Positions 15,720 through 35,861 of a stretch of DNA of 45,559 nt are shown one piece after another (within the stretch, counting starts at the first letter, position 1; each line of letters opens with the position of its first letter). This DNA is from a virus: IMG/VR virus record IMGVR_UViG_3300021180_000019, positions 1-45,559 of that record. One strand, written 5' to 3'. Under the pieces are notes generated by a model that saw nothing but the letters and a program-made list of their open reading frames with translations, searched no databases and was not told where the DNA came from. A program made the translations under genes and the position numbers.

Positions 15720-15742
15720 GGGTTTGGCTCCTCACATTCATA

Positions 15743-15771
15743 ACCTTATTACACTTCCATTCTCTTGTCAA
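15743..15771 (-). promoter_or_regulatory. Promoter, TTGACA-N17-TAAGGT
   Basis: Consensus -35, 17-base spacer, TAAGGT then TAT, the same -10 as at 9.7 kb. The first 12 spacer-side bases match those of the promoter at 13.9 kb. Leader of about 17 bases with a good ribosome site. Confidence 0.75.
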
Positions 15772-16151
15772 TAGATTCTTTGAATTTATTTTGACTCACC
15801 CGTCTAACTAGGTCACACCCATTCCGCTAAGGGAAACACGTCTAAGACTTGACACATCCGCGTCCAACTAACGAGGGATTCCCCCATCTTGACAAGAGGT
15901 GGGAATCGTCTAGAGCCTAAGTTAACTTTCAAGGGTCGAATGGCCAGCTCCACGCGGATGTTCCTTTGAAAAGGTACCGGGAGGTGGTCCAATGCGGAAA
16001 GCCGAGCCCCCTCTCGCCGGCCGGATACGGGCCTCGCGCCTCCGTCTAAGAGCGTGAGTACCAGGATGTTCAGGGATAGGTTGCAAACTAACTCCACTAG
16101 ATAGGAGATAAAAATTCGATAGATTTTTCAGTTTGGGTTTAGTAGAATAAA
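15772..16151. other. Structured non-coding region upstream of HNH gene
   Basis: No credible gene; the open frame on the minus strand (15813-16097) has unnatural composition and no ribosome site. The stretch is full of possible stems: a perfect 10-base inverted repeat ACATCCGCGT (15854-15863) with ACGCGGATGT (15952-15961), enclosing GATTCCC (15877-15883) with GGGAATC (15901-15907) and, just after, CCTTT/AAAGG. The hexamer CGTCTA occurs four times (15801, 15839, 15907, 16043). This points to a folded RNA, possibly a leader or remnant of a mobile element, but it matches no RNA class I can name. Confidence 0.5.
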
Positions 16152-16214
16152 GGGGTCAGGGGGCTGGTACCCCCGGCAAGCCCAAATCGCTGTGAAGGAG
16201 CGACCTGTGACCCC
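16152..16214 (+). ncRNA. Structured RNA leader spanning the HNH start site, copy A
   Basis: Three-stem fold: P1 GGGGTCA (16152-16158) with TGACCCC (16208-16214); P2 five bp (16159-16163 with 16170-16174) with a six-base loop; conserved GGCAAGCC (16175-16182); P3 TCGCT/AGCGA with a seven-base loop holding the ribosome site. The GTG start (16207) lies at the P1 strand. Copy B at 33275 has the same layout with compensatory changes in P2 and P3. Probably controls translation of the endonuclease. Confidence 0.75.
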
Positions 16215-16905
16215 TCAGAATTCAGAATACATCGAAATGAGATTGAGGCACGGCGTTAAGTTTCTGGTCGATGCCGAAGTCTATCCCACGATTAGGAAGC
16301 TTTCGTTTTACGGGCGCTTGGCGGAAACAGGCTTGTGGTATGTGCTTGTCGGCGTGCCTTTCTCAGATGACGAAGGCTACAGGAAGCATAAATACACGCA
16401 ACTTGCGCGCTTGATTAAAGGCCTGGAGCCCGGTAATCCTCTTGAAGTGGATCACATCAACGGAAATCCGCTCGACAATCGCAGGATCAATCTTCGGGTT
16501 TGTCCCCACGCGAAGAACATGTTGAATCGGCGGATGCACAAGAACAACACGTCGGGGTTCAAAGGAGTAACGCAAGTCGGGCCGAACCGGTGGGCTGCGA
16601 ACATAGCGCTGGAGGGCCATTTCTATTACCTCGGAGTGTTCGATTCTCCAGAGAAGGCCCACCAGGCGTATTGTGAGGCTGCGGCGTGGTTGCACGGAGA
16701 GTTCGCTAACTTTGGAGAGGACCGATCAGGGGAATTCAGTTTGGCGGTGCGTCCTGCGGCGATACCGTTGACGTTGGCCACTACAGCACGCAAGCGTCGC
16801 ACGCAAAGAGTAAGGGGAGGCGTTCAGATTTGGGGATTATCTAAAGGCCCGCGTCCTGATGGTTGCAAACCAAAAGATTCCGATGTACTATTCTTTCTGA
16901 GTTAG
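16207..16905 (+). CDS. HNH endonuclease with AP2 DNA-binding domain
   Basis: Predicted free-standing homing-type endonuclease (232 residues). The HNH core is V-D-H-I-N-G-N-P-L-D-N-R (residues 81-92), followed by N-L-R-V and N-M-L-N-R-R. An AP2-like domain follows (about 115-165): N-T-S-G-F-K-G-V ... Y-Y-L-G-V-F-D-S-P-E-K-A-H-Q-A-Y. The basic C-terminal tail (K-R-R-T-Q-R-V-R) may bind DNA. An earlier in-frame GTG at 16192 lies in the ribosome-site loop of the leader RNA and was rejected; GTG 16207 has GAAGGAG at the right distance and matches the start used at 33328. Confidence 0.92.
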   Translation: MTPQNSEYIEMRLRHGVKFLVDAEVYPTIRKLSFYGRLAETGLWYVLVGVPFSDDEGYRKHKYTQLARLIKGLEPGNPLEVDHINGNPLDNRRINLRVCPHAKNMLNRRMHKNNTSGFKGVTQVGPNRWAANIALEGHFYYLGVFDSPEKAHQAYCEAAAWLHGEFANFGEDRSGEFSLAVRPAAIPLTLATTARKRRTQRVRGGVQIWGLSKGPRPDGCKPKDSDVLFFLS

Positions 16906-20845: not shown

Positions 20846-21200
20846 TATCATTCGTCTCGATCCCTGCCGCAGCCGCGTTTTCTCCTGGATTTCCTACGAC
20901 CCCGATGCCCCCGAAGTGAGGGACGAAGCTACAGGTCGTCTGCTTCAACCCCAAGGGCCTGCGATCACGGCGCGGTATCGAACTACAGGTATGGAAATGA
21001 CCGCATGGCCGATCACCGAGGACGAGGCGCGCAGGATCATGCAGCCCGGCCAAGAGTTCGATTACTCCTCCGGTCGTGCCTGGTCGCAGATCGTGATGCC
21101 GTACAAATCCAAGCGAATGGTCAAGAGCGGGCAGAGACAGGAAACCGTGAAGCAGCGGGAAGAGACCGAACAGCGCGCAGGGAGAAGGTGGCTGGCGTGA
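20838..21200 (+). CDS. Hypothetical protein (120 aa), TTG start
   Basis: TTG at 20838 with GGAG eight bases ahead, overlapping the upstream stop. Begins I-I-R-L-D-P-C-R-S-R-V-F-S-W-I-S-Y-D, a beta region, then a basic helical end (K-R-M-V-K-S-G-Q-R-Q-E-T). Stop overlaps the ATPase GTG. No family assigned. Confidence 0.78.
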   Translation: MADIIRLDPCRSRVFSWISYDPDAPEVRDEATGRLLQPQGPAITARYRTTGMEMTAWPITEDEARRIMQPGQEFDYSSGRAWSQIVMPYKSKRMVKSGQRQETVKQREETEQRAGRRWLA

Positions 21201-22912
21201 AATCGTCTCTCCAGATCAGCGTTACTCTATCACTGCCCTCCAATGCGGTAACTCAGACTTTCGCTTGCATCGGTCGCAAAGGTGCGGGTAAGACATATCT
21301 TGCGTCCATGCTGGCCGAGCAGATGCTCGATCTCGGTGCGCAGGTAGTCATCCTTGACCCCGTTGGAAATTGGTGGGGCCTGCGTGTAGATGCCGACGGA
21401 AAATCCAAGGGCAAGGATATTTTCATCGCCGGCGGCGAGCGCGGTGATGTGCCGGTTCTGCCTGAATCTGGTGCGCGGTTTGCGCGCCTGGTTGTCGAGC
21501 GCAATGTTTCGATGGTGCTTGACGTATCGGGATTTCGGCAGGAAGAGCGTAAGCGCTTCGCTGCTGATTTCGCTGAAGAGTTTTTTCATCTCAAGAAGAC
21601 CCAGCGTAGTGCTGTGCATTTGTTTGTCGAGGAAGCGCAGCTATTTGTCCCTCAACGGTGCGGTCCTGAAGAAGCGCGGATGCTTGGTGCATTCGAAAAC
21701 ATCATTCGCCTTGGACGGAACTATGGAGTGGGCGCGACTCTTATTTCCCAGAGACCTCAATCGGTCAATAAGGAAGTTCTTTCCCAGGTCGAGTGTCTTT
21801 GTGTCCTTCAGGTCAACGGATCACACGAGCGGAAGGCGCTTGAAGAATGGGTGCAGGAGGCCGGAGCGGATCGGAAACTGGTCGGTGAACTGCCGGGGCT
21901 ATCGCAGGGTCAGGGATATGTTTGGTCGCCATCGTGGCTCAGGGTGTTCGAACGGGTAAAGTTCGCAAAGAAAGTTACATTCGATGCTTCAGCGACTCCG
22001 GAAGTCGGCAAGGCAACTAAAGCAGCCCTTCTCACTGCTGTCGATGTGGAAGCTCTCAAGGCCGATCTCCAGTCGGTGATTGCCAGTGCGGAAAAAGACG
22101 ATCCGAAAGTTCTGCGTCGAAAGATTGCGGAATTGGAGCGTGCGGCAAATCAGGCAGTCCCTAAAGACTCAGAGGAAACGAAGCGACGGTTGGCAGAAGC
22201 TGAAGGTAACGCTCTCAAGCTCACACAGTCGTTGTCGGAGGCGCAGCTTCGGTGCATTACGCTTCAGGGTTACGTCTCCGCGGTTCAAAAGATTCAGGTG
22301 GCTGCGGAAGCGATGCAACCGCTAGAACCTGTCACAGGTACACGATCTGAATATCGAAGCCCTGTAGTTCCTCAGTTAAAGCCCCAGCGGGAATGGCCGA
22401 AACCGTTCAAACCTGTTGTGGCTTCATCGAATGGTCATCTTCGTGCCGGCGCCCGTCGCATGCTTGCCTGTCTGTGCCAGTGGCTTCCTGCTGGTCGCAC
22501 CGAATCTCAGGTTGCTGCGCAGGTTCAGATGAAGAAGACCGGAGGAACCTGGGCAGCGTACAAATCAGATCTTCGCAATGGTGGCTACATCGAAATCGGC
22601 AGCGACGGTCTCTGGTACGCTACTGATCACGGACGTGATTACCTTGGTGCGGATGTTCCTGACACCCCTACAACGACCGATGAAGTGATTGAGCTTTGGG
22701 GTCAGAAGCTTCGTCTCGGGGCACGGAATATGCTGGATGTGCTTGTACGGCACAAAGGTCGAGCAATTTCCAAGGACGATTTGGGCCAGGCTGTAAATAT
22801 GGAATCGAGCGGTGGAACGTTCTCAGCGTATCTTTCCGATTTGAAACAAGCTGGACTGATTGTTGTGGATCGAGACGGTGTGCGTGCAAACGCGGAGACA
22901 TTGATGCTATGA
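21197..22912 (+). CDS. HerA/FtsK-like DNA translocase ATPase with tandem winged-helix C-terminus
   Basis: Predicted DNA-pumping ATPase of 571 residues. Walker A is G26-R-K-G-A-G-K-T33, followed by L-D-P-V-G-N-W-W-G-L; Walker B is H-L-F-V-E-E-A-Q (E145, E146); I-S-Q-R-P-Q is the usual downstream HerA-family motif. A coiled coil spans about 275-375. Two winged-helix repeats close the protein, each with G-G-T-(W/F)-x-A-Y-x-S-D-L. GTG 21197 is chosen because GTGA overlaps the upstream stop. HerA proteins often work with NurA nuclease; none is seen nearby. Role in phage DNA handling is unknown. Confidence 0.9.
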   Translation: MKSSLQISVTLSLPSNAVTQTFACIGRKGAGKTYLASMLAEQMLDLGAQVVILDPVGNWWGLRVDADGKSKGKDIFIAGGERGDVPVLPESGARFARLVVERNVSMVLDVSGFRQEERKRFAADFAEEFFHLKKTQRSAVHLFVEEAQLFVPQRCGPEEARMLGAFENIIRLGRNYGVGATLISQRPQSVNKEVLSQVECLCVLQVNGSHERKALEEWVQEAGADRKLVGELPGLSQGQGYVWSPSWLRVFERVKFAKKVTFDASATPEVGKATKAALLTAVDVEALKADLQSVIASAEKDDPKVLRRKIAELERAANQAVPKDSEETKRRLAEAEGNALKLTQSLSEAQLRCITLQGYVSAVQKIQVAAEAMQPLEPVTGTRSEYRSPVVPQLKPQREWPKPFKPVVASSNGHLRAGARRMLACLCQWLPAGRTESQVAAQVQMKKTGGTWAAYKSDLRNGGYIEIGSDGLWYATDHGRDYLGADVPDTPTTTDEVIELWGQKLRLGARNMLDVLVRHKGRAISKDDLGQAVNMESSGGTFSAYLSDLKQAGLIVVDRDGVRANAETLML

Positions 22913-30758: not shown

Positions 30759-31330
30759 GCAAACTCGCAGCAGTCCGCACCGGTCAGGCCACCCAGGGCA
30801 TCGGCGCTGTTCCCAATGGAAATGCAGCAGAACGCGCCGCAGCAGCGCAGATTGCAGTGATGGAAGATGATGCGCATGCGTTTGATGCGCAGATGGCCGC
30901 TATTCCTGCTGCCATCAACCCCCGTTCTGCGCACTCTGCCGCAGCGGCGACCGTGACGGCCGCGTGGCTGTCGCTCTCGGCGACCGAGATGGAAGTCCGG
31001 AAGTACTTCCGTTCGGTTCCTGTTCCGAGTGGTCTGGAGGCTCTGGCGAAGATGCGCAAGCAATGCGATCTTGCTGCGGCTGAGTTACAGCAGCGTATGG
31101 ACGACAACAACACAGAGCGCTGTTCAGGCTGCGGAAAAACGCTCGAGGAAGTTCGCAAGACGCAATTCATCATGCAAGGGTCCGAAGTTGACCCGGAGAC
31201 CGGCGTGCCCATGCCGTATCGCTACTGTGGCGTGCAATGCGTGCGCGAGCGGAATCGCGAGAAGATGCTGCCGCCTGAGCTGCGTGATAAGAAGAGGTTC
31301 GACGGCGAAGAGATGGGGGATGTGAAGTGA
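30755..31330 (+). CDS. Hypothetical protein with zinc-binding C-terminal part (191 aa)
   Basis: Ala-rich helical N-terminal half, then C-S-G-C-G-K and C-G-V-Q-C, a likely zinc site, and a charged end. ATGA and GTGA overlaps with neighbours. Translated just ahead of the peptide deformylase; no functional link is known. Confidence 0.82.
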   Translation: MSKLAAVRTGQATQGIGAVPNGNAAERAAAAQIAVMEDDAHAFDAQMAAIPAAINPRSAHSAAAATVTAAWLSLSATEMEVRKYFRSVPVPSGLEALAKMRKQCDLAAAELQQRMDDNNTERCSGCGKTLEEVRKTQFIMQGSEVDPETGVPMPYRYCGVQCVRERNREKMLPPELRDKKRFDGEEMGDVK

Positions 31331-31821
31331 TTGTGGATTACCCCGATCCAATTCTCTTGCGAGAATGCGAGGAGATCGACCCCCTGTCTAAAATATGCAG
31401 GAAGATCGTCGAGTCGTTACGCGTAGACATGCACGCGTATCGTAGGAAAGGCATAGGGTTATCGGCTCCGCAGATTGGTTTATCTTTTCGGATTTTTGTT
31501 ATGGATAACAAATTTCTTGGTGTCAAAGGTTCAAGTGCATTTATCAATCCAAAGATTACGTGGGTCAGTCAAGAGACGGAATGGGAAGACGAAGGGTGTC
31601 TTAGTTTTCCTGCTGCATTTATCGTATCTGTTGCTCGTCCGGTGTCGATAGAAATATCTGCGTTCGATACAAGAGGACGGAGGTTTGAAGAGAAGATGTC
31701 TGGATTGGCTGCACGTTGTTTTCAGCACGAACAAGATCATTTAAACGGGATAAATTTATGGAATTACGCTTCGGATAAAAGGAAAGCGTTGTTCGCCAAA
31801 GATTTGGAGAAAACTGTATGA
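31327..31821 (+). CDS. def: Peptide deformylase
   Basis: Removes the formyl group from N-terminal methionine. All three family motifs are intact: G42-I-G-L-S-A-P-Q49, E89-G-C-L-S93 and Q-H134-E-Q-D-H138, giving the metal ligands Cys91, His134 and His138 and the catalytic Glu135. The length (164) is normal. GTG start in GTGA overlap. Phage deformylases are known from marine phages, where they may help host or phage photosystem and capsid protein turnover; here the target is unknown. Confidence 0.95.
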   Translation: MIVDYPDPILLRECEEIDPLSKICRKIVESLRVDMHAYRRKGIGLSAPQIGLSFRIFVMDNKFLGVKGSSAFINPKITWVSQETEWEDEGCLSFPAAFIVSVARPVSIEISAFDTRGRRFEEKMSGLAARCFQHEQDHLNGINLWNYASDKRKALFAKDLEKTV

Positions 31822-32943: not shown

Positions 32944-33270
32944 ATGCCTCGTCTGTGCTCATCATGTCATCGTCTGAAGCACGCGCTCAATTGTCCGCGT
33001 CGTCGAGTAAACCGCCGAGTGCTAGAGCGCAAGGCGCTTAGGCAACAGCAGGACCAGCCTCCTCTCCCTCCGGTCTGCACTCCTGAAGATCAGCGTCGGA
33101 TACTGGAAGGCCATGTGTATCGAATTGACGGAGACGCGGCTGTGTTCATGGAAGATGTGATCATGGAAATGCACCTGGGAAGAAAGCTGGGTGCGAACGA
33201 GAGAGTCCGGCACAAGAACGGCGACTTTTTGGATAATCGTGATGCCAATCTGGAATTGATTACGGTATGA
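32944..33270 (+). CDS. HNH-like endonuclease (short, 108 aa)
   Basis: C-S-S-C at the N-terminus, a basic linker, then an HNH half-site: H-L-G-R-K-L-G-A-N-E-R-V-R-H-K-N-G-D-F-L, followed by N-R-D-A-N-L-E-L. This matches the common phage HNH pattern with H, N and N retained. It may be an HNH nuclease next to the terminase, as is usual in HK97-type packaging modules. Activity is not certain because the first catalytic His appears as R in V-R-H. Confidence 0.72.
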   Translation: MPRLCSSCHRLKHALNCPRRRVNRRVLERKALRQQQDQPPLPPVCTPEDQRRILEGHVYRIDGDAAVFMEDVIMEMHLGRKLGANERVRHKNGDFLDNRDANLELITV

Positions 33271-33274
33271 TAAT

Positions 33275-33335
33275 GGGGTCAGAGTGTGTGCTCACTCGGC
33301 AAGCCTAATCATTCTGGAGGAATGACCATGACCCC
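33275..33335 (+). ncRNA. Structured RNA leader spanning the HNH-AP2 start site, copy B
   Basis: Same fold as copy A: P1 GGGGTCA (33275-33281) with TGACCCC (33329-33335); P2 GAGTG/CACTC with a six-base loop; GGCAAGCC (33298-33305); P3 TCATT/AATGA with a seven-base loop that carries GGAGG. The ATG at 33328 abuts the P1 strand. Four base pairs differ from copy A and all remain paired. Confidence 0.75.
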
Positions 33336-34035
33336 AAAGAAATCATACCCGAAGATGGATCTGTCCGGCAAAAAGTTCGGGCTGTGGACTGTGTTGAGTT
33401 TTTACGGTACCTACTACGGAAAGGCTCCCACGTGGGTGTGTCGGTGCCGATGCGGTTGTAAGGGTATCTATCATGTGATGCAGTGCAAGTTGTTAAAGGG
33501 TCTATCAACATCGTGCGACGACTTGGATATCCGCAAGTGTTGGATCAAGAACGGCGTCGGTTATATTCCATTGACTAAAGGCAAAGTAACTACGGTTAAA
33601 CCTCGTCAGATAGTGAAGTTGCAGCGGTGGTCGTGGTATGCCGCTCTTTTGGATGATGGGTGGTATGCATATCGGCGTCAAGATGGAAAAGGCATATCTA
33701 TGGCTCGCCAGATTCTCGGCCTGGGGCCACCGGAAAAAGACAAGAGGGAAGCAGAGCACCGCGGCGGCAAGACTCTTGACAATTACAACATCCGCATAGC
33801 CGATCGTAGTCAAAACGAAGCTAACAAGGGAGTACGTCGAGACAGCGAAACCGGAGTTAAGGGAGTGCGCTATCAAAAGTACAAAGGTAAGTGGACCGGC
33901 AAATACGTGGCGCGGATAAGGTACTGGGGAACGGAAATACACTTGGGAGTGTGTGACACTTTGGAAGAGGGTAGCGCGATGTACATGGAAGCTGCGCGGA
34001 TTTTATTCGGAAAGTTTGCCCGAAGTAAGTGGTGA
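33328..34035 (+). CDS. HNH-AP2 homing endonuclease-like protein, HNH partly degenerate
   Basis: A 235-residue protein beginning with the zinc domain seen in phage HNH-AP2 proteins (D-L-S-G-K-K-F-G-L-W-T-V, C-R-C-R-C-G-C). The HNH core A-E-H-R-G-G-K-T-L-D-N-Y-N-I-R is shorter than the usual D-H-x-N-G-N and lacks the first Asn, so cleavage may be lost. N-E-A-N-K-G and an AP2 domain (T-G-V-K-G-V ... L-G-V-C-D-T-L-E-E) follow. ATG 33328 is preferred to ATG 33322 because GGAGG is seven bases ahead. It sits just before TerL. Confidence 0.85.
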   Translation: MTPKKSYPKMDLSGKKFGLWTVLSFYGTYYGKAPTWVCRCRCGCKGIYHVMQCKLLKGLSTSCDDLDIRKCWIKNGVGYIPLTKGKVTTVKPRQIVKLQRWSWYAALLDDGWYAYRRQDGKGISMARQILGLGPPEKDKREAEHRGGKTLDNYNIRIADRSQNEANKGVRRDSETGVKGVRYQKYKGKWTGKYVARIRYWGTEIHLGVCDTLEEGSAMYMEAARILFGKFARSKW

Positions 34036-34049
34036 TTTGGAGATGACAT

Positions 34050-35861
34050 TTGCCGTTAGATTTGAATCACGTAACTAGGTTCTTTTCTCGGCTCAATATT
34101 CGTGACCGTGATGCGGGCACTCTCATTCCTTTTACACTTCGTCAGCAGCAATTAGAAGTGATAGAGATGGCGAAGGAGCATCTTGCTCGTCGTCGTCGGC
34201 TCTTCATAATATTCAACAAAGCTCGTCGTGTAGGGCTATCAACACTTGCTACTGGTTTTGGGCAGGCTCACTGCATAGCTCATCCCGGTTCTTTGGCTCG
34301 TTGTATCGCGCAGAATGCTGAAGTAGCAGCGGCTAATTTTTCCATGGCGTGCACGTTTCGTGAGGATTGTCGTGAGTTGTATCCAGGTGCGCCAAAGCCA
34401 ACAAAGAAGACATTGATTTGGCCCCACTCCGACGGTCCTGATTCGCAATTCACTCACCATACGGCGGCGACGGTACACGGTCAACGTGGACTGACATCGA
34501 GTTTCTTGCACCTCACAGAAGCGGCCTTCTATCCCTACGAAGGGGCCTTCACTTCATTGCTAAACACGTTAAGTATGGACCCCAATAATGTGTGCATAAT
34601 TGAAAGTACTAGCAACGGAATGGAAGGCCCTGGAGAATCTTACTATCAGTATTGGGAGGCGGCAGTTGCTAAGGAGAACGAGTTCCTTCCTATATTCTTG
34701 CCGTGGTGGGATGACCCGGCATACATTCTTCCAGCCGAGTTAGCTGCCGATGCTCCTCGTGACGAATATGAAAAGTTTTTGATGACAGGAGTCAAACACT
34801 GGCGAACGGGGAAAAGAGTAGAACTTGGAAAGGATCGTATTGCGTGGTTTCGCGATACCTTATCGACCAAATGCGAGGGGATCATTGAGAAGTGGAGAGC
34901 GGAATATCCGGCTACTTCAGAGGAATCATTCATCGCCACCGGCAACCCTGCTTTCACTATTGAGGAGATTCAGTTCGCAGAAAATGCTGTCGTAAAAATT
35001 CCCCCGTTCCGTGGTCGGTGTGTTCTCTCAAACGACCTCAAGCACGGAGAGTTGCAAAAAGGAACGGACGGGCCGCTGGTTGTCTACGAGACGCCTCAAA
35101 AATCTCATCACTATTTTGCGGGCGTAGACTCCGCGCGCGGTGAAGAAAATACGATGGCCCCCGGCGATTACGCTGCCATTGTAGTGTGGAACGCAGAGAC
35201 CGGCGATCTGGCGGCGCGGTACATGTCGCGTGTGTCACCCGAAGAACTCGCGCCTGTTGCCGCAGCCCTTGGCTACTACTTCAATGGTGCGATGCTCAAC
35301 GTCGAACTTAACAACATTGGCTACGTTACCATGCGCGAGCTTCGTGATCGTCTGTACTACCCGAACCAATATATCTGGAAGGGTCGCGACGATCGTGTGG
35401 ATAGATCGAAGCAGGGCGTGGCTTACGGATTTGAAACTTCTGATCGTTATCGAAAAATGATGTTCTCGATGTTTCGTAATTCCCTCTATCGCAAAGAAGT
35501 AGTGCCTAAAGACCAGGTGTTCGTTTCACAGATGAAAAAAGCGAAGATGGAGATGGCCTGGCGATGGAACGTCGCTGTGGGCCACGACGACGTCTTGATG
35601 GCGGGCTTCCTCGGTTGGATCGCCAAAGAACAGAACCATCAGTTCGCGTGCCAACACAGGTCAAGCAAGAACACCATGATGACGAAAGAAGAACTCGAAA
35701 CTGCGGGATTTCAACCTGTACGCGGTCAGATGCCTACCTGGCTGCGCGATCCCTCCGTGACGGGCATGGGTACGTTGATTACAACCGGTAACGATCATCT
35801 CAAGAAGTTGGAAATCTACGCGAAGAAAAAGCAGCGGATGAACAGGTTGGAGTTCATATGA
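34050..35861 (+). CDS. Terminase large subunit (TerL)
   Basis: Packaging motor and headful nuclease, 603 residues. The ATPase half has a deviant Walker A K57-A-R-R-V-G-L-S-T65, Walker B L-H-L-T-E157-A-A-F and coupling motif E-S-T-S-N-G (185-190). The nuclease half shows D360 in F-A-G-V-D-S-A, E419 in L-N-V-E-L, and D513-D514 in G-H-D-D-V. E-E-S-F-I-A-T-G is the usual terminase segment. TTG start with GGAG seven bases ahead. No small subunit is recognised. Confidence 0.95.
   Translation: MPLDLNHVTRFFSRLNIRDRDAGTLIPFTLRQQQLEVIEMAKEHLARRRRLFIIFNKARRVGLSTLATGFGQAHCIAHPGSLARCIAQNAEVAAANFSMACTFREDCRELYPGAPKPTKKTLIWPHSDGPDSQFTHHTAATVHGQRGLTSSFLHLTEAAFYPYEGAFTSLLNTLSMDPNNVCIIESTSNGMEGPGESYYQYWEAAVAKENEFLPIFLPWWDDPAYILPAELAADAPRDEYEKFLMTGVKHWRTGKRVELGKDRIAWFRDTLSTKCEGIIEKWRAEYPATSEESFIATGNPAFTIEEIQFAENAVVKIPPFRGRCVLSNDLKHGELQKGTDGPLVVYETPQKSHHYFAGVDSARGEENTMAPGDYAAIVVWNAETGDLAARYMSRVSPEELAPVAAALGYYFNGAMLNVELNNIGYVTMRELRDRLYYPNQYIWKGRDDRVDRSKQGVAYGFETSDRYRKMMFSMFRNSLYRKEVVPKDQVFVSQMKKAKMEMAWRWNVAVGHDDVLMAGFLGWIAKEQNHQFACQHRSSKNTMMTKEELETAGFQPVRGQMPTWLRDPSVTGMGTLITTGNDHLKKLEIYAKKKQRMNRLEFI

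Follow-up and report, generated by a model that had tools for sequence, protein, structure and literature searches.

Several phage genes carry leaders that sequester their own ribosome site, among them I-TevI, I-TevII, I-TevIII, segB, e, soc and 49 of phage T4 and mobE of phage Aeh1 (PMC2988022, PMC3014915). The logic of the T4 type is that the start is hidden by folding in a long RNA, whereas RNA made from a nearby promoter is without the 5′ strand (PMC2988022, PMC3014915). The leader described here resembles those of T4 and Aeh1 in having RNA pairing over the Shine–Dalgarno sequence and/or the start codon of phage endonuclease genes, and in having a putative promoter element placed so that local transcripts should miss the 5′ strand. 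It differs in that the T4-like phages use gene-specific hairpins, whereas here one conserved multi-helix fold is found across unrelated genes and phage groups. The box is TATAAT-like and at a fixed spacing, in contrast to the T4 late sequence, TATAAATA. Repression has been measured in T4; in the leader of these environmental phages it is inferred.

Two other kinds of RNA invite comparison. HEARO (IscB omega RNA) is likewise a structured RNA directly 5′ of an HNH-type nuclease gene, but the present leader is 60 nt long, overlaps the start codon and has no Rfam match. HEARO differs in size from such a 60-nt leader, and was ruled out by the absence of both an Rfam match and an IscB-like RuvC-HNH protein. 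Translational riboswitches also place a folded 5′ leader over the ribosome site; unlike them, this one has no strictly conserved ligand-like core and precedes nuclease genes rather than those of a metabolic pathway. Small ribozymes and attC-like sites were weighed only against their consensus features and against Rfam. At gathering score, Rfam 15 had no hit in the window, and at the element itself none appeared up to an E value of 5 (five loci), in keeping with the preliminary description, which could not place the RNA in a named family. No description of the motif was found in the open literature; an earlier mention in the survey of 224 RNA motifs or in the paper on the mobE hairpin is not excluded. 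As an RNA family the leader appears to be new, and its function is a variant of the known structured start-site control of phage endonucleases.

Two copies of the leader in the window

The window, that is, the whole stretch of 45,559 nucleotides that was analysed, contains two copies of the leader (Table 1). Their positions and sequences, the P1 helix GGGGTCA/TGACCCC common to both, and the stems are exactly as first described. Both copies have a P2 of 5 bp with a 6-nt loop and a P3 of 5 bp with a 7-nt loop, and the four compensated pairs reported between them are present. The ribosome site had been placed in the P3 loop and, in the copies inspected, the Shine–Dalgarno sequence does lie in or at this loop. 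The start codon, however, does not abut P1 as had been thought but overlaps it, the TG of GTG (16207) or ATG (33328) opening the strand TGACCCC. A helix that includes the start codon and/or the Shine–Dalgarno sequence is thus present, with the TG in P1, and the helices covary. The segment GGCAAGCC between P2 and P3 had been called invariant, which holds between the two window copies and fails elsewhere. As a control for chance, the pattern read backwards had no match in the record. Taken singly, the copies fold only modestly better than shuffled sequences (z of −2.1 and −2.0), about 2 standard deviations, so that the case rests on comparison, where the evidence is overwhelming.

Table 1 Positions of the leader elements and neighbouring genes in the window
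Feature	Position	Strand	Description
Copy 1, box	16143–16148	+	TAGAAT, putative −10-type; 3 nt 5′ of P1
Copy 1, leader	16152–16214	+	~60-nt structured RNA over start of gene 16207–16905
Copy 1, P1	16152–16158 with 16208–16214		GGGGTCA/TGACCCC
Copy 1, P2	16159–16163 with 16170–16174		
Copy 1, mini-hairpin	16175–16182		GGCAAGCC
Copy 1, P3	16187–16191 with 16199–16203		
Copy 1, Shine–Dalgarno	16195–16200		AAGGAG; P3 loop and beginning of P3 3′ strand
Copy 1, HNH endonuclease gene	16207–16905	+	GTG start, 232 aa; HNH_3 E 1.1e-8; PHROG 99 HNH E 5e-38
Copy 2, box	33266–33271	+	TATGAT, putative −10-type; 3 nt 5′ of P1; holds stop codon of upstream ORF
Copy 2, leader	33275–33335	+	structured RNA over start of gene 33328–34035
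Copy 2, P1	33275–33281 with 33329–33335		
Copy 2, P2	33282–33286 with 33293–33297		
Copy 2, mini-hairpin	33298–33305		
Copy 2, P3	33309–33313 with 33321–33325		
Copy 2, Shine–Dalgarno	33316–33320		GGAGG; within P3 loop
Copy 2, HNH endonuclease gene	33328–34035	+	ATG start, 235 aa; PHROG 99 HNH E 4e-19
Terminase large subunit gene	34050–35861	+	PHROG 2 E 2e-19; directly 3′ of copy 2 HNH gene

Some other features of the window were recorded. On the 5′ side of copy 1, ~430 bases (15720–16150) without a convincing gene separate a leftward from a rightward gene block and are possibly a divergent control region. Directly upstream of copy 2 is a small HNH_3 ORF (32944–33270) that has no leader and whose stop lies inside the −10 box. 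A peptide deformylase (PHROG 2890) is encoded at 31327–31821. In addition to the terminase at 34050, there is a second large ATPase ORF (21005–22912), which PHROGs matches to phrog_2666, a family of terminase large subunits.

Relatives of the leader and covariation of its helices

The preliminary description had proposed a covariance-model search for further homologues with paired substitutions, and these were found: pattern searches and two covariance models together recovered more than 40 copies of the leader in environmental phages, in at least three divergent groups. Among the phages that carry it are some whose major head proteins are 24–30% identical or show no detectable relatedness. 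In IMG/VR the pattern P1 + GGCAAGCC + P1′ matched 12 stretches, nine of them over the starts of nuclease-like genes; the other three (L004, L007 and L012) are chance matches. The set was widened with the covariance models R1 and R2 and with relaxed patterns to a final alignment of 41 distinct copies. One copy (L251) was reached through its protein rather than an RNA pattern, and several others (second copy in L011, L280, L397, L389, L384) were found by model rather than pattern.

Background was estimated from ~200 loci fetched by chance patterns and scored with R1, and reaches 28.8 bits. Score alone therefore does not separate the weakest copies, and their context does. Two low-scoring loci in related phages, L389:11782–11842 (19.8 bits) and L384:15920–15982 (15.8 bits), both show the box and paired stems, and in each an ORF resembling a nuclease gene begins within P1. 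The 28.8-bit background locus was rejected, since it lacks a −10 box and its only frame, of 67 aa, opens with a non-consensus codon. Almost all matches from a loose pattern scan and from one scan of genome contigs were due to chance, as were, on inspection, the two weak matches in 297 Acidobacteriota genomes; a structural descriptor written by hand let through too much at low scores. By BLAST, the element had no convincing match among named phages. Six named phages (Bacillus 268TH002, Pseudomonas PfDIW6, Gordonia Faith5x5, Pseudanabaena Pam5, FelixO1 and Tunturi_2) have relatives of the HNH proteins that are without the leader and, since the same is true of ORF 32944–33270, the leader is not general to HNH genes.

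The covariation claimed for the folded RNA extends to all three helices, P1 to P3, including the start-overlapping P1. The 41-row alignment, itself fitted to the model, has 96.7% of its pair cells paired (77.9 in shuffles) and two-sided changes in 114 cells (30.8 in shuffles), and its score is 0.431, compared with 0.103 when shuffled and at most 0.112 in slid controls; none of 500 shuffles reached any of the three values. Some of the collecting patterns fixed parts of helices, GTCA/TGAC above all and in one case also GGTG/CACC; P2 (in the earlier sets) and P3 were not fixed throughout. Among 26 copies parsed by hand, all four Watson–Crick types occur at P2 pairs 3 and 4, and both P3 and P1 vary with compensation. 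A plain MAFFT alignment analysed with RNAalifold recovered the helices alike, in shortened form. The 3′ strand of P1 is coding, with codon 2 reading ACN in every copy, and the wobble base of this codon changes jointly with its P1 partner (GC, UA, CG). Such a paired silent change shows selection on the nucleic-acid structure rather than on the protein. We regard it as very nearly certain that this is a selected, structured, cis-acting leader.

The middle segment, GGCAAGCC in the window, reads GGACAAGCC, GGCCAAGACC, GGCAAAGCC, GGCTCACGCC, GGACGAATCC and others in the remaining copies. Its variants (GG-CAAG-CC, GGA-CGAA-TCC, GGC-TCAC-GCC, GGC-AAA-GCC) change as those of a mini-hairpin would, and in most minimum-energy folds it forms a small hairpin. 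On these predictions the fold is probably a four-way cloverleaf, in which P1 would close a junction of P2, a mini-hairpin of 2–3 bp and P3; the mini-hairpin is less certain than P1–P3. In one copy (L397:1501–1559, minus strand) P2 reads GGGGTTCGAGCCCC, resembling a tRNA T-arm, probably by coincidence.

The box before P1 and inferred control of the start

Of 44 copies, 40 have a TATAAT-like box (at least 5 of 6 positions) in the 14 nt that precede P1, compared with 7 of 264 control windows; the preliminary description does not mention this box. The spacing from box to P1 is exactly 3 nt in 31 of the 44, while the upstream sequences otherwise differ widely between groups. No −35 element was found above control. 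From its sequence and placing, and with no data on promoter activity, we infer that the box is a −10-type promoter element. In usual bacterial promoters the RNA starts ~7 nt downstream of the −10 element. If the box is such an element, the RNA would start ~7 nt past it, near nucleotide 4 of P1, although this start has not been mapped.

Pairing in P1 runs almost to the box. It exceeds shuffles at nucleotides 1–3, and nucleotides −1 and −2 beside the box are also paired in many copies, again above shuffles; at nucleotide −3 it is only suggestive (reached by 13 of 500 shuffles). In the test of the P1 region, pair 5 is formed in 36 of 37 copies (16.1 in shuffles) and pair 8 in 27 of 37 (13.8). Relatedness among the copies inflates these tests, but three pair types occur at each of these two pairs. 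An RNA started from the box would not contain nucleotides −2 to 3, so their pairing points to read-through RNA, the only RNA in which the full P1 should form.

We suggest the following mechanism, for which promoter, RNA start and translational repression are all inferred. The full fold, which takes up the TG of the start codon in P1 and has the Shine–Dalgarno sequence in or at the P3 loop, would block 30S initiation. Read-through RNA from upstream genes would keep the full P1 and be silent, whereas transcription driven from the box would start inside the 5′ strand of P1, so that P1 would be shorter and the start easier to reach. Synthesis of the nuclease would then require transcription from its own promoter, as for I-TevI, segB and gene e of T4 and mobE of Aeh1. 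By prediction, opening the ribosome site costs 14.3 kcal/mol when P1 is complete and 8.3 kcal/mol when it is truncated (means of 26 copies). Release would be only partial, as the truncated RNA still has four P1 pairs and P3. The upstream gene is co-directional in 32 of 43 copies (by a rough gene caller); against the mechanism, a co-directional gene is not clearly present immediately upstream in about a quarter of copies, including window copy 1, there is no −35 element to go with the box, and no matching sigma factor was identified. Translational control by the leader is the best inference and has not been shown experimentally; for the scheme of read-through off and local promoter on, we put the chances at about even.

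Of the other explanations, the one that survives best, while still unlikely, is that all transcripts have the complete fold, which is opened or locked by a small molecule or a factor acting in trans; the leader would then be a riboswitch, a temperature sensor or the operator of a protein from host or phage. A common trans signal is suggested by the presence of one leader before unrelated genes, and the complex junction with its conserved GG-CAAG-CC and the invariant GTCA/TGAC would suit it; however, the core of the junction is constant in neither sequence nor length and has almost disappeared in L280, there is no Rfam match, and the genes have no common metabolic theme. Translational coupling, in which ribosomes finishing the upstream gene melt P1 so that nuclease is made in proportion to upstream translation, is quite unlikely. 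The upstream ORF does stop 4–20 nt before P1 in several copies, and that of copy 2 in the −10 box itself, but coupling explains neither the box nor the copies without a close co-directional gene upstream.

That the RNA starts at nucleotide 1 of P1, its paired 5′ end stabilising the message and effects on the start codon being secondary, we consider very unlikely. Nucleotide 1 is almost always a paired G (39 of 41 are GC, the other two AU or UA), but the start would have to lie only ~4 nt past the −10 box, which is unusually close, pairing reaches upstream of nucleotide 1 in many copies, and the fold sits over the start and the Shine–Dalgarno sequence. More doubtful again is autoregulation, by which the encoded nuclease would bind its own leader RNA, or the same DNA site, and repress itself. 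I-TevI does repress its own promoter through an operator there (PMC2988022), but the present leader stands before genes of several kinds (HNH-AP2, a second type of HNH, DUF559 and one unrelated gene), and sequence-specific binding to DNA is disfavoured by helices whose bases change freely but stay paired. The weak folding of single copies might suggest inverted repeats that arose by chance, or common descent with no function as RNA, but these are already refuted by covariation and P1 pairing that beat shuffles in copies spanning phages with divergent or unrelated head proteins.

Genes behind the leader

Both window genes had been described as sharing HNH-AP2 domains. In 16207–16905 HNH_3 is clear and AP2 falls below the Pfam cut-off, while 33328–34035 matches PHROG HNH endonuclease families and has no Pfam match at 0.01. 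The further expectation of matches at the starts of HNH-AP2 genes was met as regards nuclease genes, but these include other HNH types and DUF559, and one gene is unidentified. Nearly all leader-borne genes encode HNH or DUF559 nucleases (on homing itself there are no data): HNH_3/AP2, another HNH type (PHROG 374) and DUF559 nucleases (L260, L305). Their proteins have 110–370 aa, and Pfam shows only HNH_3, AP2 or DUF559.

Within the window's phage group, whose major head proteins are 94–100% identical, and in its relatives, the slot before the terminase can be compared. A w2-type HNH gene lies directly before the terminase in the window, G001, G003, G004, G006, L006 and L251. In L375/G026, of the window's group, and in L311, whose terminase is 76% identical, the slot holds an unidentified leader-borne gene (L375:11841–12335 and L311:2144–2659). 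Its product, of 164–171 aa, contains the motif GQCHALA and matches nothing in Pfam, PHROGs or NCBIfam. The slot of L011 (terminase 55%) holds the other HNH type. The leader also occurs at other sites, and in L299, L301, L352 and L372 leader and gene are found just 3′ of the terminase. With three gene types in one slot, the leader stays while the gene changes.

In three of the phages with the leader 3′ of the terminase (L299 from 3250 onwards, L301 and L372), the HNH frame breaks into unrelated sequence after ~25 residues (89 aa in total); the relative in L352 is intact, with 170 aa. The three look like a decayed gene with its leader retained.

A possible reading, which we offer only tentatively, is that box, cloverleaf and start codon form a portable expression socket, a unit kept or spread by several phage groups while its cargo, mostly nucleases, is exchanged. 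The slot before the terminase would, equally tentatively, be an example, with three gene types under the same built-in silencing. One leader is found on genes that are unrelated, and this even within a single slot, which suggests that the regulation moves independently of the gene, in contrast to the gene-specific hairpins of T4.

For a phage, endonuclease genes are cargo that may do harm, and little is known of how they are silenced in uncultured phages. The leader would probably keep these risky genes silent in long read-through messages. As an RNA family it is recognisable and covaries, it can be searched for with a model, and it carries a precise prediction, that read-through RNA would be off and local-promoter RNA on; it may also serve as a marker that flags nuclease genes and cargo genes of unknown kind.
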